From: a virus
Virus record (IMG/VR): IMGVR_UViG_3300032116_001409
Coordinates: 1 to 22,442 of that record
Strand: one strand, 5' to 3'
Length of the DNA stretch: 22,442 nt
Part shown: piece after piece, positions 1,437 to 9,623 of the stretch
How positions within the stretch are numbered: the first letter of the stretch is position 1
How the letters are laid out: every line of letters starts with the position of its first letter
Notes under the pieces: model-generated
The model's input: only the letters and a program-made list of their open reading frames with translations
The model's database searches: none
What the model was told of the DNA's origin: nothing
Program-made: the position numbers and the translations under genes

Positions 1437-2450
1437 TTACAGGCCCCCTGTAAGGAATGGATGGATAAACGACTCCGTCGACTGCCTGGCGTTCGTCGAC
1501 AGTCGAGAGTCTGACAGCGTCCCGCTGGTGATATTCGTCGCGTTCGTCGCGTCTGTAGTGGCCGAGGCGGCCAGGCCGGAGACGGAGCTCGAGGAGATCG
1601 TCGCAGCGGTCGTGAGAACCCCGCCCGTCGTCGTGACGACGACCTGCCCGGAAGTTGATCCGATCGCCCCTGCGGTCGAAATGTTCCCGTGGAAGTGTGT
1701 CGCCACGGCGGCGCCGATCGCGTCGCACCACTGCGACAAGTCGGCGGCGCTGTAAACCATCAAGATACCGTCGTAGACGCTGATAGCGTCCGCGGCTTGC
1801 GACGGGTCATAGATCGCGTTGGCGCGGTCAGCGACGCCGTCCGACAACGCGGTGGCCTTTCCGTCGAGCGAAGCCTGTAGGCCGGTGACCTGGGAGACTG
1901 CGATTGTCAGCGGATCGGCGCCTGCGGCGGCGTGGCTTGACGCGTGAGCTGACGGCGCGAACGTCGTCGGCTTATCGGTGATACCGCCCCAGGTCGTCGT
2001 CCCTGCGGGGCCGGTGGCGCCGGTGGGCCCCGTCTGGCCGGCCGGGCCTTGCGGGCCTGTAGCGCCGGTGGCTCCCGCCGGGCCTGTAGGGCCTTGCGGG
2101 CCGATCTCGCCCTGTGGGCCGGTGGCTCCGGTGGGTCCAGTGGCCCCGGTGGCCCCGGTGGCCCCGGCTGGGCCTGTCGGGCCAGTCTGGCCCGTCGGGC
2201 CTTGTGGGCCTGTCGGCAGAACGAGATTCAGAGTCTGGCTCGGAGCCGCCCCGGTGATCGTGGCCGAGGCCGCGGCCCCGTCTGTCACGGTTCCGATCGC
2301 GAGCGTGTTCGCTGGGCCCGTGGCCCCTGTCGCTCCGGTCGCCCCGGTGGGACCAACTGGGCCCTGCCCGCCGGCGACGCTGGCCGTGACGGTCTGCCCG
2401 CTGGTGGAGACGGCGATCGTCTCGTTCTCGACGTTGACGTTGATCCCCAT
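1437..2450 (-). CDS. Collagen-like phage tail fibre protein
   Basis: This 337-aa protein starts at ATG 2450, which overlaps the TAA of the preceding gene (TAATG). Residues 1-28 form a short head ([15 protein letters not shown]). Gly-X-Y collagen triplets occupy residues about 29-46 and 81-150, dominated by GPT, GAT and GPQ. A hinge with [10 protein letters not shown] at about 172-181 follows; that motif is frequent just after the shaft in phage fibres. The rest is an Ala/Thr/Ser-rich trimeric-looking region ending [10 protein letters not shown]. Collagen triplets in phage proteins normally make trimeric fibres, so a host-contact fibre is the likely role. The repetitive coding DNA produces a long antisense frame rich in PVGPV that is not a gene. 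Confidence 0.85.
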
Positions 2451-2770
2451 TAGCGGACCACCTCGAAGATTCCTTCCAGGGCCGTCCGCCTGGCCGAGCC
2501 AGGGGCGGTCCAGATCAGCCGCCAGAGGTACGAGCCAGGAGCGATCGCGTCGCAGACGGTCTCCGTCATGGCGAGATTGACCTGGCCCGACGCGAGACTG
2601 ACGGCCGAGACGGTGAGCTCGCCGACCTCGGCGCCGGTGATCGCCGAAACGACTTCCGCCTCGAACGTGTAGCCCGTGAGGTCGACCGAGAAGTCGACGA
2701 GTTGCGACAGCTCGTCGCCGTGCTTCACGGTGACATTCAGCGTCCCCGGCAGAGTGGATACGGTTGCCAT
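2450..2770 (-). CDS. BppU-like small baseplate/fibre-attachment protein
   Basis: The product is 106 aa from ATG 2770. A TTG six bases upstream is in frame, but the AGG of the upstream stop region is better spaced for the ATG. The sequence has a [20 protein letters not shown] segment and a closing [20 protein letters not shown] region. This resembles the N-terminal beta-sandwich of phage baseplate upper proteins, where a GDTF..DLTGY segment and a final ...G.F.V strand are typical. It sits immediately upstream of the collagen-like fibre, consistent with an adaptor that anchors the fibre to the tail tip. Family assignment is by pattern only. Confidence 0.55.
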
Positions 2771-2779
2771 GTTCAAAGC

Positions 2780-3112
2780 CTATGCGGGGCTTTCCCCGGA
2801 GAATCCCGGGTTGTACCGCTCGCGGTGCTCCTCTTCGCTCCATCGCTCCGCCCGCAGCTCCGCGGCGCGGCGGTATATCTCGTCGATCGGCAGGTCGACG
2901 AACTCCGGCTGGGGCGGATACTCGCGGCCGGGCCTCGGCCCTCGACGCTGGCGCGGTATATCGCGAAGCTCGTTCCGCCTCGCGTCGTAGAGCTTGCGGG
3001 CGCTGATCCCTGCGGCCGCCTGGGCCTCGGCGTCCGTCGCCCCTCGGTCCAGCTCACGCCGGACGATCCGCTCCTCCGTCTCCGTCAGGACGCGCCTACG
3101 CTTCCGCGTCAT
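2780..3112 (-). CDS. Small HTH DNA-binding protein at the early/late boundary
   Basis: This 110-aa basic protein starts [20 protein letters not shown]. Residues 10-50 look like a homeodomain-type helix-turn-helix: an [11 protein letters not shown] helix, [16 protein letters not shown], then a [10 protein letters not shown] recognition-like helix. An arginine/proline-rich linker and an acidic helical tail follow. The start overlaps the 3' end of the RusA gene by 17 bases. It lies exactly where the recombination genes end and the fibre genes begin, so either a late-gene activator or a terminase small subunit would fit. I cannot decide between them from sequence. Confidence 0.55.
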
Positions 3113-3554
3113 GGCAGGGCCTCACCTGGACGATCGTCCGCGCGGCCTCGCCTGGCTTCGCGTACCGTTTTCGGACGCGGCCGTCGACGACCTGGTCGTC
3201 GTCGAACCAGATCGCCCCGCTGTCGGTGATCGCGTCGGCCACTCCCTTCCCGAGGTTGTCCCAGTCGCAGCGCGGCGGGAACGCCGGGGCCGTTGCCCGA
3301 GGCTCGCCGGCCGCGTTTAGGTGGGACGGAGGCCGCGCGAACACCGCGAGGACCTCGAGCACGACCGGGCCGTCCGTCGGCCTGTGGCCGTTCCATCGCG
3401 CGGCAGCCGCCGCGGCGAGCTGGACCGCCTGGCGGTAGACGTGGATCGGGTGTTTCTTCTCGACGTACGCGCGGCCGTGGCCTCCTCGGGTGGAGATCTT
3501 CGGCCTCGGCTGCGGGACCGGAGGCCCCGGGATCTCGAACGTGAGCGCATCCAT
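3096..3554 (-). CDS. rusA: RusA-family Holliday junction resolvase
   Basis: This 152-aa protein carries the RusA core. An N-terminal strand (FEIPGPPVPQPRPK) is followed by a basic patch and a central metal-binding region with D97, D99 and N100 in CDWDNLGK, K103, D107 in ADAI, and the acidic D118-D120 followed by QV. The family is a dimeric, magnesium-dependent endonuclease that cuts four-way junctions, resolving recombination or branched DNA before packaging. Length is slightly above the usual ~120 aa, mainly at the C-terminus. It belongs to the early operon with the Sak4-like ATPase, SSB and initiator, and overlaps the next HTH gene. Confidence 0.9.
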   Translation of the reverse strand: MDALTFEIPGPPVPQPRPKISTRGGHGRAYVEKKHPIHVYRQAVQLAAAAAARWNGHRPTDGPVVLEVLAVFARPPSHLNAAGEPRATAPAFPPRCDWDNLGKGVADAITDSGAIWFDDDQVVDGRVRKRYAKPGEAARTIVQVRPCHDAEA

Positions 3555-3569: not shown

Positions 3570-3893
3570 TCACGGCGGCCGCTTGAATCCAGCGAGCCTC
3601 CCGCGGACGAACGCCTGGCGTCGATCGGCCAGGTCGTCGTCTGATTTGCCGACGTAGATCACGACGGTGACGTCTGGATCGTTCCCCGACATGAGGCGGA
3701 CCGCCGCGACCAGCCGCAGGAGCCGCCGGCCGCACTCATGGCAGAACTCCGAATGGAACGTCGCCCGGAGGAACGAGTGGTCGTCGTCCCAGTGGTCGAT
3801 CCAGACCTGGTTCGGCGCGTGCTCTGGCTCGAGGCCGTAGATCGACAGCGTCGCGACCTGGAGATCCCGCTCGGTAATCATGACTCCCGGCAT
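3570..3893 (-). CDS. Hypothetical protein with a single CxxC motif
   Basis: The product is 107 aa, starting MPGVMITERDLQVATLSIYG. The only motif is FCHECGRRLLRLVAAVRL, with one CxxC pair at about residues 51-54, which could bind metal only with ligands elsewhere or in a dimer. Several Asp and Trp residues precede it (WIDHWDDDHS), and a conserved-looking strand DVTVVIYVGKSDDD follows. I do not recognise the family. A second in-frame ATG lies at 3881, and neither start has a convincing ribosome site. It is the first phage gene on the low-coordinate side of the attC-bearing insertion region. Confidence 0.5.
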   Translation of the reverse strand: MPGVMITERDLQVATLSIYGLEPEHAPNQVWIDHWDDDHSFLRATFHSEFCHECGRRLLRLVAAVRLMSGNDPDVTVVIYVGKSDDDLADRRQAFVRGRLAGFKRPP

Positions 3894-3965: not shown

Positions 3966-4026
3966 CGATAACGTCCGCCGATTGCGTCATTCGGCGGCGA
4001 GATGCCGAAACGGCGGCGCGTTATGC
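3966..4026 (+). repeat. attC-like integron recombination site 1
   Basis: The bases match attC spacing: R'' CGATAAC (3966-3972), 5-base spacer, L'' CCGATTGC (3978-3985), 21-base loop region, L' GAAACGG (4007-4013), 6-base spacer, R' GTTATGC (4020-4026). ATAAC pairs with GTTAT. L'' pairs with L' at six of seven positions once the A at 3981 is left out as an extrahelical base, the position where attC sites carry their extra base. The cut would fall between G4020 and T4021. R''/R' match the consensus poorly outside AAC/GTT, and no matching left cassette boundary was found, so this is less certain than site 2. Confidence 0.45.
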
Positions 4027-4053
4027 CTCACGACGGGACGCTACGGGGAACAG

Positions 4054-4069
4054 GAGAACCACTGGTTCT
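4054..4069. repeat. Palindrome at left cassette boundary (collapsed attC or operator)
   Basis: AGAACCACTGGTTCT (4055-4069) is a perfect 15-base palindrome around C4062. It resembles attC site 2 with the whole L''-L' hairpin removed, leaving AGAAC-CAC and TGG-TTCT. Joining 4065 directly to 4341, as cassette excision would, extends it to the 17-base palindrome GAGAACCACTGGTTCTC. It could instead be an operator. Confidence 0.45.
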
Positions 4070-4340
4070 GTGGCTACTTGCCGCCCGTCAGCATCTGCCA
4101 CGCTTCATAGCAACCGCTTCCCACTGGTGAGCCTTGTAGCAAATACGCGGCGTTTTGAATCAGCACCCGCAGCCGCGTGACCTCGTCTTGCAAGTCTTCG
4201 TTTTCAGAGTGCATCCGCCGCTCTTCTGGTGTGCAATCGCAGTTCATCGGCTTCTTGTCGCATATAGGGCAATACATCCTACTTCTCCTCTACGCTCACA
4301 GAACCACGCGATGCAGCGGACGGGCCGCTGATCGCTGGCG
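4066..4340 (+). mobile_element. Integron-type gene cassette (275 bp)
   Basis: The unit is bounded by G^TT points at 4065/4066 and 4340/4341. Its first bases, read with the preceding G as GTTCTGTG (4065-4072), are the exact reverse complement of CACAGAAC (4297-4304), the R'' box of the attC at its right end. This self-complementarity is the diagnostic property of a cassette that once closed into a circle; the R' at its right end (GTTCTCAC) matches R'' over fewer bases. It contains one good ORF (4074-4277, minus), opposite to the usual cassette orientation but in line with phage transcription. No integron integrase gene is in the window. Confidence 0.65.
4074..4277 (-). CDS. Cassette-borne small zinc-ribbon/coiled-coil protein
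   Basis: This 67-aa protein begins MYCPICDKKPMNCDC, a compact cysteine cluster (C3, C6, C13, C15) that looks like a zinc knuckle or half of a zinc ribbon. An acidic heptad-like helix follows (about residues 20-42, SENEDLQDEVTRLRVLI), predicted coiled coil, with a short tail containing one more Cys. A strong ribosome site (GAGGAGAAG) lies upstream of ATG 4277, inside the strand complementary to the attC flank. The gene fills nearly all of the cassette between its two recombination points. Function unknown; a DNA- or protein-binding accessory factor is plausible. Confidence 0.65.
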   Translation of the reverse strand: MYCPICDKKPMNCDCTPEERRMHSENEDLQDEVTRLRVLIQNAAYLLQGSPVGSGCYEAWQMLTGGK

Positions 4341-4346
4341 TTCTCA
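4297..4346 (+). repeat. attC integron recombination site 2
   Basis: Every attC element is present in order: R'' ACAGAAC (4298-4304), 5-base spacer CACGC, L'' GATGCAGC (4310-4317), loop GGACGGGCC, L' GCTGATC (4327-4333), 6-base spacer GCTGGC, R' GTTCTCA (4340-4346). L' is the exact reverse complement of L'' once G4313 is removed as the extrahelical base, and AGAAC pairs with GTTCT. The asymmetry (8-base L'', 7-base L'; 5- and 6-base spacers) is what integron integrases use to choose the folded bottom strand. At about 50 bases it is at the short end of known sites. Confidence 0.7.
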
Positions 4347-4390
4347 CTTAGTCCGTTCAAGAAGCCCACGACCGGAGTCGCTCTACGATA

Positions 4391-4618
4391 TCAGCCACGA
4401 TGCCCTCCTCCCTGCGGCGTCGTCTCGCCGCGACGCCACTTGATCACCTTGGTACGCGACGCCTCGTCGCTCTCGGCCATCCTCTCGGCCAGGTGGGCCG
4501 CGCGGATCGGCTCGGCTCGCCGCGCTACCCACGGGGCAAGCGCGAGGCCGGAGATCGAGGCGGCCTCCTCCTCGGCCGGGACGGAGTCCGGCCAGTCTGG
4601 ATCGTATTCGTAGGTCAT
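4391..4618 (-). CDS. Hypothetical small early protein
   Basis: This 75-aa protein starts at ATG 4618, overlapping the TGA of the initiator gene (ATGA), so it is probably co-translated. The N-terminus is acidic (MTYEYDPDWPDSVPAEEEAA). It is followed by LALAPWVARRAEPIRAAHLA and a basic tail (TKVIKWRRGETTPQGGG). No family is recognised. Its place directly after the initiator is where phages often carry a helicase loader or small regulatory partner, but no such motif is visible. Its stop lies about 50 bases from the right cassette boundary, so the original C-terminus could have been altered by the insertion. Confidence 0.5.
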   Translation of the reverse strand: MTYEYDPDWPDSVPAEEEAASISGLALAPWVARRAEPIRAAHLAERMAESDEASRTKVIKWRRGETTPQGGGHRG

Positions 4619-5478
4619 GCGGCGCCCTCCTGTCGCAGTCGATCGGCCATAGCTCGTTTCGTCGCCTCGAATCGGGCCGCGTCGTCGCCCTGGAACGCCT
4701 GCGGCGGTCCTCGGTCATCGGTGCCGCGGTAGCCTCCCCGGGCCGGCTGGTCGCGGGCGTTGTCGAACTGGCCCCCGAGGACCTTATCAACGAAGCCCGG
4801 CGCGACGAGCTGCGGCAGCGTCACCGGATCGCGGAAGTATTTGCAGCGCGGCAGGGCCTCGATCGCCGCGAGGGCCTTCTGGAACCAGCCCTCCTCGGCC
4901 AGCCGGTCGGCGACCTTGTCGGGCGGGTCCGGGAGTTTCCACGGGCGCCCGGTCCCGGCGGCCCACGCCTGGCGGAGTGTGTCCCAGCCGGCAGGCTGGG
5001 CAGGCTCCCCACGCGCAGCCGTCCCGGGGGAAGAAGAAGAATTTCTATCTCCTCTATCCCCTCCCTCGGGGGCGCGCGGCCCCCCGGTGGGGGGCGCGCC
5101 GCCCCCCGGCGGGGGGCGCCGCGCGCCCCCGACCTTGTCGACCTGGTGGCGGACCGCCGTCAAAGCCCGTGATTTCGCGGCTTTTGCGAACCTGGAGTCC
5201 CATCCGGGGATACCAATGGTCCCATTCTCCGCGTCGATCACCAGCCAGCCGACCGTCTCGACCTGCCTCCAGAACTCCTCGTCGCCTCCGCACAGTCTCG
5301 CCAGGAGCCGGACCGACATACGGGCCGACCCGTCGGAGCTGTTTAGGGCCGCCCAGCCCCATAGCATGACGAGGCGGCCGACGACCTGGTCCGGCGCGAG
5401 GCCGGTCCGGTCGACGAGCTCGAGGACCTCGGGCTTCTGGGGGAGGCAGACGTCGTAGGGGACCCATTCACCGGCCAT
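4615..5478 (-). CDS. Phage replication initiator / replisome organiser (lambda O-like layout)
   Basis: This 287-aa protein has a winged-helix-like N-terminal domain (residues 1-105: EWVPYDVCLPQKPEVLELVD, then a VVGRLVMLWGWAAL helix and the FWRQVETVGWLVIDAENGTI wing). A Gly/Pro/Arg-rich disordered linker (about 112-165) and a C-terminal helical domain (166-287) follow. The N-terminal pattern is typical of phage DnaD- or O-like proteins that bind origin DNA, the C-terminal part usually contacting the helicase or its loader. Ribosome site GGAGGG lies 7 bases before ATG 5478. The DNA encoding the linker holds a large palindromic structure (separate entry), recalling lambda O with its embedded origin. 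Neighbours are a winged-helix protein upstream and a small unknown downstream. Confidence 0.75.
   Translation of the reverse strand: MAGEWVPYDVCLPQKPEVLELVDRTGLAPDQVVGRLVMLWGWAALNSSDGSARMSVRLLARLCGGDEEFWRQVETVGWLVIDAENGTIGIPGWDSRFAKAAKSRALTAVRHQVDKVGGARRPPPGGGAPPTGGPRAPEGGDRGDRNSSSSPGTAARGEPAQPAGWDTLRQAWAAGTGRPWKLPDPPDKVADRLAEEGWFQKALAAIEALPRCKYFRDPVTLPQLVAPGFVDKVLGGQFDNARDQPARGGYRGTDDRGPPQAFQGDDAARFEATKRAMADRLRQEGAA
5031..5130. other. Candidate replication origin inside the initiator gene
   Basis: A 12-base inverted repeat, GGGGGCGCGCGG (5068-5079) and CCGCGCGCCCCC (5119-5130), encloses two tandem hairpins of identical build: C6-GGT-G6 (5080-5094) and C6-GGC-G6 (5102-5116). Together they can fold as a cloverleaf. 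Immediately beside it (5031-5058) is an AT-rich purine/pyrimidine tract (AAGAAGAAGAATTTCTATCT), unusual in this GC-rich genome and a plausible unwinding element. Repeats plus an AT-rich flank inside the initiator's linker coding region match the plan of the lambda origin. Low-complexity Pro/Gly coding could alone produce part of the pattern. Confidence 0.45.
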
Positions 5479-9328: not shown

Positions 9329-9383
9329 TACACCCCGCTGGGCTCGAACCAGCAACCTTCGGTTCCGTAGACCGATGCTCTAC
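9329..9383 (-). other. attP core: 3' part of a tRNA-Arg(ACG) gene
   Basis: On the minus strand the D-stem 3' arm GAGC, an anticodon arm TCGGT-CTACGGA-ACCGA (anticodon ACG at 9368-9366), variable loop AGGTT, T arm GCTGG-TTCGAGC-CCAGC and acceptor 3' strand GGGGTGT plus A are all present. The 5' acceptor strand and D-stem 5' arm are missing upstream, so this is not a functional tRNA. Such 3' fragments next to an integrase are the usual attP core of phages that integrate into tRNA genes and rebuild them. Int starts about 240 bases away. Confidence 0.8.
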
Positions 9384-9623
9384 GAGGCCGCAAGTCGCTG
9401 GGTCGCGAGGCAGTGGAGGACGACTATCGAGTGTAACGAATGCCCTAGTTGCGCCACCAAAAAATCCACCAGCGCACCCAGAGTGGGGGGGTGGGGGGGG
9501 CCATGGAGGGATGCGGCATAGGGGCCTCTTTGGTGGGATACCCGCCGCCCCGTCGGATAGGGCGGTTCGCAGTGATCGCAGGGGGGACATGGACAGCCCC
9601 CGCTGCGGTGGAAATGCTGGCCG

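Follow-up and report, generated by a model that had tools for sequence, protein, structure and literature searches.

The locus considered here raises the question of whether a short segment of an operon in a freshwater phage is an integron gene cassette, and which recombinase could have placed it there. "The window" refers to the whole stretch of DNA that was analysed: a complete IMG/VR virus record of 22,442 b, encoding a capsid protein, a Sak4-like protein, a RusA-like resolvase, a replication initiator and a tyrosine integrase. The segment is likely a gene cassette of integron type that occupies an attI-like site carried by the phage; its recombination by an integron integrase is inferred. 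The basis is an attC hairpin like that of intI-bearing Planctomycetota contigs, complementary cassette ends, and a junction at G^TT (^, crossover) whose left side, the leader, is constant and whose right side varies. Further support comes from related phages, whose arrays reach 14 sites and whose ORFs lie mostly antisense to attC, pointing the same way as the replication genes.

The attC site and the ends of the cassette

4066..4340, plus strand: gene cassette of 275 b, from the T of the left G^TT to the G of the right G^TT (complementary ends; alignment with L001 and L002)
4298..4346, plus strand: attC site (model R2, 36.1 bits, E 3.6e-7, sole match; grammar scan)
4298-4304, plus strand: R'' box ACAGAAC (sequence)
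Next, plus strand: spacer CAC between R'' and the left arm (sequence)
4308-4319, plus strand: left arm (L'') GCGAT-G-CAGCGG, with one unpaired G at 4313 (sequence)
Next, plus strand: loop ACGGG between the arms (sequence)
4325-4335, plus strand: right arm (L') CCGCTGATCGC (sequence)
Next, plus strand: spacer TGGC before R' (sequence)
4340-4346, plus strand: R' box GTTCTCA (sequence)

The site meets the attC criterion for an integron cassette (R''-L''-L'-R' with an unpaired base in L''). The original prediction, made without database searches, had claimed attC architecture at 4298-4346; this held, with box and spacer lengths slightly off (the paired arm is 11 bp, not 7). The R boxes, GTTCTCA and ACAGAAC, do not fit GTTRRRY and RYYYAAC, which are typical for integron cassettes.

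Two covariance models were made in this analysis, both distinct from the IntegronFinder/HattCI models. R1: model from 40 phage sites; the window is among the seeds, and its R1 score is therefore by construction. R2: model from 20 attC sites of eight intI-containing fetched Planctomycetota regions, from seven genomes. The R2 seeds were located with R1, which is a selection bias; their nearness to intI is independent of it. The check by covariance model suggested with the original prediction was passed with R2, built from attC sites of intI-bearing contigs, which gave no other match in the window up to E 10.

A chance palindrome within an ordinary operon is all but excluded; no observation speaks for it. 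When both strands were scanned with a strict grammar (AAC, an arm of 5+6 bp with a single bulge, GTT), the window gave a single site and 60 shuffles from a first-order Markov model gave none. The R2 match has the E value given above, and the attC core pattern was found in 117 IMG/VR stretches.

The left end of the segment, GTTCTGTG (4065-4072), is the exact complement of CACAGAAC (4297-4304) over 8/8 bases, as had been predicted. On the plus strand of the window, GTTCTGTG occurs twice (4065, 8433) and CACAGAAC once. In the integrated site, R'' pairs with R' over only 5 bases, against 8 with the far left end; better pairing with the far left end is what a circular cassette predicts. The two cassette ends match over 5 bases beyond GTT. 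The criterion for an integron cassette that G^TT bounds both ends, and that these are complementary as in a closed circle, is thus met. The GC content of the cassette is 57%, against 66% for the window; this is not extreme, other stretches of the window going down to 47%.

A family of attC sites in related phages

R2 gave 298 matches (240 and 58) in the window and 124 viral loci. These loci were fetched mostly by the attC core pattern, the rest by the cassette ORF, and site counts are not prevalences. After exclusion of four end-cut or partial matches, 294 full sites remained. They come from 115 of the 125 sources; the sites of a given source always share one strand and number at most 14, a figure reached by two loci. 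In the 40 seed sites of R1, 94.5% of arm cells are paired, and 35 cells are changed on both sides versus 12.2 in shuffles; both this count and the covariation score exceed all 500 shuffles. Two of the five covariation measures were not above the shuffles (both-side changed pairs, 166/500; further pair types, 355/500).

Some viral loci belong to the same contig. Duplicate cassettes were removed by sequence, and intervals were used only if they measured 60-700 b and had no 60-mer in common with another. A circular intermediate is indicated by matching cassette ends, since the left end should then complement its own far R'' and not the R'' across the hairpin. Such a match, over at least 4 bases beyond GTT, was found in 108 of 130 distinct cassettes (60 loci); same-site comparisons matched in only 24/130 and 22/130, and 10,000 permutations gave a mean of 26.5 and a maximum of 41. 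Smaller tests agree (21 cassettes; 89 of 118 sites with such a left end versus 29.5 expected). The prediction that the segment once closed into a circle at G^TT is supported, the signature being general in these phages.

Of the 130 cassettes, 116 have their longest ORF antisense to attC, 13 have it sense and one is tied. R' boxes are mostly GTTCTCA, GTTCTGT and GTTATGC. The usual consensus is fitted by few phage sites (GTTRRRY, 2/272; RYYYAAC, 5/291) versus about half of host sites (10/19 and 8/19, respectively).

Half attC sites were also seen (L038, L050, L102): at junctions such as CTGATCCTGCGT^GTT, the left half appears to have been replaced by a ribosome site and start codon.

In a genome collection of 84,980 species, the exact phage-type attC pattern had no match. 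A looser pattern matched 41 genome stretches, once each; when read, only those of L140 (Marinobacter) and L170 (Sulfuritalea) resemble attC, and the others fit chance. The latter, a single attC-like site in a Sulfuritalea MAG (L170:6718-6770, minus strand), has an R' box, GTTCTAA, near those of the phages, and the same genome carries intI (L178).

The attI-like leader

4008..4065, plus strand: attI-like leader, whose last base is the G of the left G^TT crossover (nhmmer leader profile)

An nhmmer profile, built without the window on 26 distinct leaders of other phages, matches 4008-4067 with 22.9 bits (E 1.9e-6); the best score on 50 shuffles was 10.2 bits. The profile includes the leaders found by pattern and six hand-picked edges; remaining edges, including the short palindromic form, were omitted. 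A pattern for the last 23 bases of the leader, which stops before GTT, was found in 25 IMG/VR stretches. In the fetched phage DNA this end occurs 26 times (two of these being one contig read twice), and GTT comes next in 26/26. To the right of the leader-GTT junction, 19 distinct 40-mers were found among the 25 occurrences that were long enough. Sorted by eye, 31 hand-picked left edges of arrays comprise 21 with the long leader (including the window), six with a short palindromic one and four without a clear leader. The window, L001 and L002 have leader and cassette in common and diverge at the right GTTCT (4340-4344).

By position, the leader is likely an attI site: a constant site with variable cassettes at G^TT. 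This is inferred from sequence without activity data, and the attI criterion of a complete integron is met by position only. The original prediction proposed a comparison with other alleles. The comparison was passed, other phages joining the leader at the same G^TT to other genes. The segment is also more than an isolated insertion, lying at the attI-like site of phages that keep cassette arrays.

The cassette ORF and its relatives

4074..4277, minus strand: cassette ORF of 67 aa, antisense to attC polarity and in the direction of the neighbouring phage genes (ORF list)
4278..4289, minus strand: ribosome binding site region AGGAGAAGTAGG before the ATG of the cassette ORF (sequence; similar in several relatives)
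4341..4382, minus strand: C-terminal remnant (..GLLERTK-stop) of a second, truncated cassette (ERTK endings elsewhere)

The cassette carries one ORF with a strong ribosome site, in phage sense and opposite to normal cassette orientation. This part of the original prediction held, and the reversal proves to be the rule in these phages. The sense-orientation criterion for a cassette ORF is accordingly unmet. An ORF sense to attC is usual in integron cassettes; it is not strictly defining.

No Pfam or PHROG match was found for the ORF product, and no match in INPHARED. Its relatives are near full-length in five viral loci and partial, mostly N-terminal, in 11 more. The proteins of L006-L015 share their first ~30-35 residues with that of window 4074-4277 (CPICDQK..NCDCTPEERRMH), and their C-terminal parts mostly differ, as though halves had been swapped between genes. 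The ERTK ending of the truncated remnant is found in 11 of 129 cassette proteins.

Cassette cargo was searched for among 99 proteins (the window ORF and 98 from a set of 116 cassette ORFs). Pfam: DUF551 in 15/99; Dam, Mom and HNH, one each. Among 25 of the 57 PHROG families matched, there are in addition Mom-like, methyltransferase, phosphoesterase and terminase small-subunit matches.

A rival explanation is that the hairpin is a conserved RNA element (a terminator or 5' leader hairpin) that precedes small phage genes, which are shuffled by homologous recombination between repeats. Several observations speak for it. Among the 16 loci with relatives of the cassette ORF, the hairpin lies directly upstream in eight, just before the ribosome site on the coding strand, and is absent there in the other eight (L003-L005, L011-L015), so that relatives without attC exist; hairpin copies are very alike, making homologous exchange possible (it may also occur); and some proteins have a common N-terminus with a differing C-terminus. 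Against it, it is the two ends of a cassette, separated by hundreds of bases, that are complementary, rather than the two flanks of a single hairpin (108 versus 24 and 22 of 130), the sites are detected by a model derived from attC sites of intI contigs, the partner of the leader switches exactly at G^TT, and an Rfam search of the window gave no family at gathering score. The RNA element is considered very improbable.

Gene setting

3096..3554, minus strand: RusA-like resolvase (PHROG 140, E 6.5e-24; synteny)
4615..5478, minus strand: phage replication initiation protein, on the opposite side of the array (PHROG 2509, E 9.8e-21; synteny)

Genes near the attC site are on the minus strand, as read from the ORF list. 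The RusA-like resolvase is the leader-side neighbour in the window and four other loci, 0.55-1.3 kb distant in these five sources. The cluster of the replication initiation protein includes 24 sources, among them the window; the initiator lies on the side away from the leader and on the same strand as the cassette ORFs in 23/23 sources that have both. A clamp-like gene, named from reading without a family search, is on the cassette-ORF strand in 19/20. For the leader-side ORF 3570-3893, 25 viral-contig stretches matched the pattern and none was a true relative. In INPHARED, the window capsid has a single distant match. An ORF with collagen-like GPTGPQG repeats (window 1437-2843, minus strand) could encode a tail fibre.

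Hosts and host integrons

The hosts of these phages are probably Planctomycetota; that of the window is inferred from its kinship with related phages. The terminase type of L046 co-occurs with the window-type initiator in five loci; none of this type was seen in the window. This terminase has a match of any kind in 59 of 392 Planctomycetota genomes (best, 812 bits; near full-length matches of 49-57% identity among the best). In another phylum, that of G075, only partial matches were found (29/299 genomes; best, 83 bits). One candidate prophage with a cassette (G358, Planctomycetota) was rejected: its attC lies ~4 kb from a terminase, but the flanking genes do not look phage-like.

R1 matched (E 0.01) 68 of the 392 Planctomycetota genomes, at most 15 candidates being scored per genome, and 70/392 have an intI over the TIGR02249 cut-off. 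An intI with E 1e-60 or better is present in 74 genomes, which include 26 of the 68 (12.8 expected; p 2.6e-5). The eight fetched regions have attC sites and intI in the same stretch. In host arrays, the longest ORF is sense in 13 of 17 intervals, antisense in three and tied in one (no length filter). Phage and host attC polarity can be compared because bulge and arm sequence are identical in both.

It could be argued that the locus is part of a host integron and was wrongly assigned to a phage or wrongly assembled with one; the window is a metagenome contig and many intI contigs are found in IMG/VR. However, phage genes lie on both sides, the same arrangement is found in other contigs and the orientation is opposite to that of host arrays. 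This possibility is regarded as highly unlikely.

The recombinase

No intI over the cut-off was found in 114 distinct virus records (four weak matches), and none in the window; many of these records are fragments, and some cassette loci are not among them. The criterion of a complete integron that intI lies in the element is thus unmet in the window. The CALIN criterion (at least two attC sites without intI, as used in PMC9892861) is also unmet, the window having one attC. Action of a host IntI on the phage boxes, which break GTTRRRY, has not been shown; a host IntI acting in trans and a phage-carried IntI are both possible.

Alternatively, the cassettes could be real but owe their movement to tyrosine integrases of the phages themselves and not to an IntI. 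Of 50 records, 29 have PF00589 matches; BLAST links 30 such proteins and the window integrase into one group; and the R boxes deviate from the usual IntI consensus. On the other hand, the 12 best identities to the window integrase are 23-51%, 21/50 records (fragments) have no PF00589 match, and likeness to IntI is weak at most (best E 1.9e-5). The window integrase also adjoins a tRNA-Arg-like 3' half (9331-9395), as an ordinary attP would; this half is taken here to be the likely attP core, and ARAGORN called no tRNA in the window. Movement by phage integrases is considered unlikely.

Returning to IntI, relatives of its gene were found in at least 559 of 600 IMG/VR stretches, and 80 contigs were kept (L292-L371). 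On these, the phage model gave eight weak matches in six contigs and R2 gave 106 matches to E 0.5. Orientation was counted from R2 rows to E 0.05 and two L348 sites from the phage model: over 20 loci there are 20 sense intervals (L308 alone supplies 10), 22 antisense and one tied. Of these loci, 12 are only antisense, four only sense and four mixed.

One of these contigs, L348:5736-8981 (IMGVR_UViG_3300033553_000822), is a candidate complete phage integron. Its intI is full and scores 410 bits with TIGR02249 (cut-off, 265). Other genes: two primase matches, a weak terminase small-subunit match and a Lar-like restriction-alleviation gene antisense to attC. R1 finds two attC-like sites, one with the R' box GTTCTCA; R2 lists one at E 0.44 and not the other. 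Judged by its longest ORF, the single measured interval is sense, although it also contains two shorter ORFs that are antisense.

Proposed mechanism and significance

In the proposed mechanism, an IntI-type tyrosine recombinase would cut one folded attC strand at G^TT; the cassette would circularise and then insert at the leader of another phage genome. The recombinase would probably be provided in trans by the host, probably a planctomycete, or by intI-carrying phages. The phage operon, running from the replication genes to the leader, would transcribe the array, and the reversed ORFs would therefore be expressed without the integron promoter Pc. The cassettes look like a common pool of small early phage genes, most without known function.

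A bolder reading, somewhat less likely than not, is that of a phage-specific integron lineage: a private Planctomycetota-phage pool of small, backward-reading early cassettes, captured at an attI-like leader where the replication operon ends downstream. The lineage would have a box specificity of its own (GTTCTSN) and a recombinase distinct from chromosomal IntI, carried by some phages (e.g. L348) and used in trans by others.

Integrons are known as bacterial devices for gene capture with one promoter. This phage group appears to have reversed the device: transcription would come from the phage operon, whose downstream end would be the attI-like site. If this is true, early genes, some possibly with a role in counter-defence, pass from phage to phage through site-specific recombination of folded single strands, and cassette exchange between phages becomes directly testable.

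Comparison with known systems

Planctomycetota integrons resemble the phage family in their attC sites, AAC-(CA)-arm-G-CAGCGGAC...CCGCTGA-GTT, and, in examples, in matching cassette ends. They differ from it by the presence of intI, mostly sense ORFs, mostly longer intervals and GTTAGGC-like boxes.

The intI-bearing viral contigs, especially L348, share with the phage family their origin in a viral collection, attC arrays and, in many of them, antisense cassettes; L348 also shares the GTTCTCA R' box and the Lar-like gene antisense to attC. They differ in having intI relatives (a score above the TIGR02249 cut-off is established only for L348) and in their mixed orientation.

Integron parts in phages have been published. 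Three complete integrons, one In0 and 17 CALINs were reported in 10,705 NCBI phage genomes, and IntI1 recombined five of six tested phage attC sites with attI1 (PMC9892861; Qi et al. 2023). The original view that integron cassettes in phages are very rarely noted is corrected by this work and by the number of IMG/VR stretches with the core pattern. The published elements resemble those described here in having attC cassettes in phages, mostly without intI, and cargo that includes DNA methyltransferases. They differ in orientation and sequence: the cassettes of TJE1 and PH101 are all in one direction and the attC of P12002L is divergent, whereas the family of the window has a single type of phage attC, an attI-like leader at array starts, mostly reversed ORFs, GTTCTSN-like boxes and hosts that are probably Planctomycetota. 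In the literature searched (preprints and most subscription papers were outside its scope), nothing was found that describes an attI-like leader in phages, ORFs that are reversed as a rule or a phage attC family that does not fit GTTRRRY. Cassettes in phages were thus already known; the backward-reading, phage-specific family with its attI-like site is probably new.
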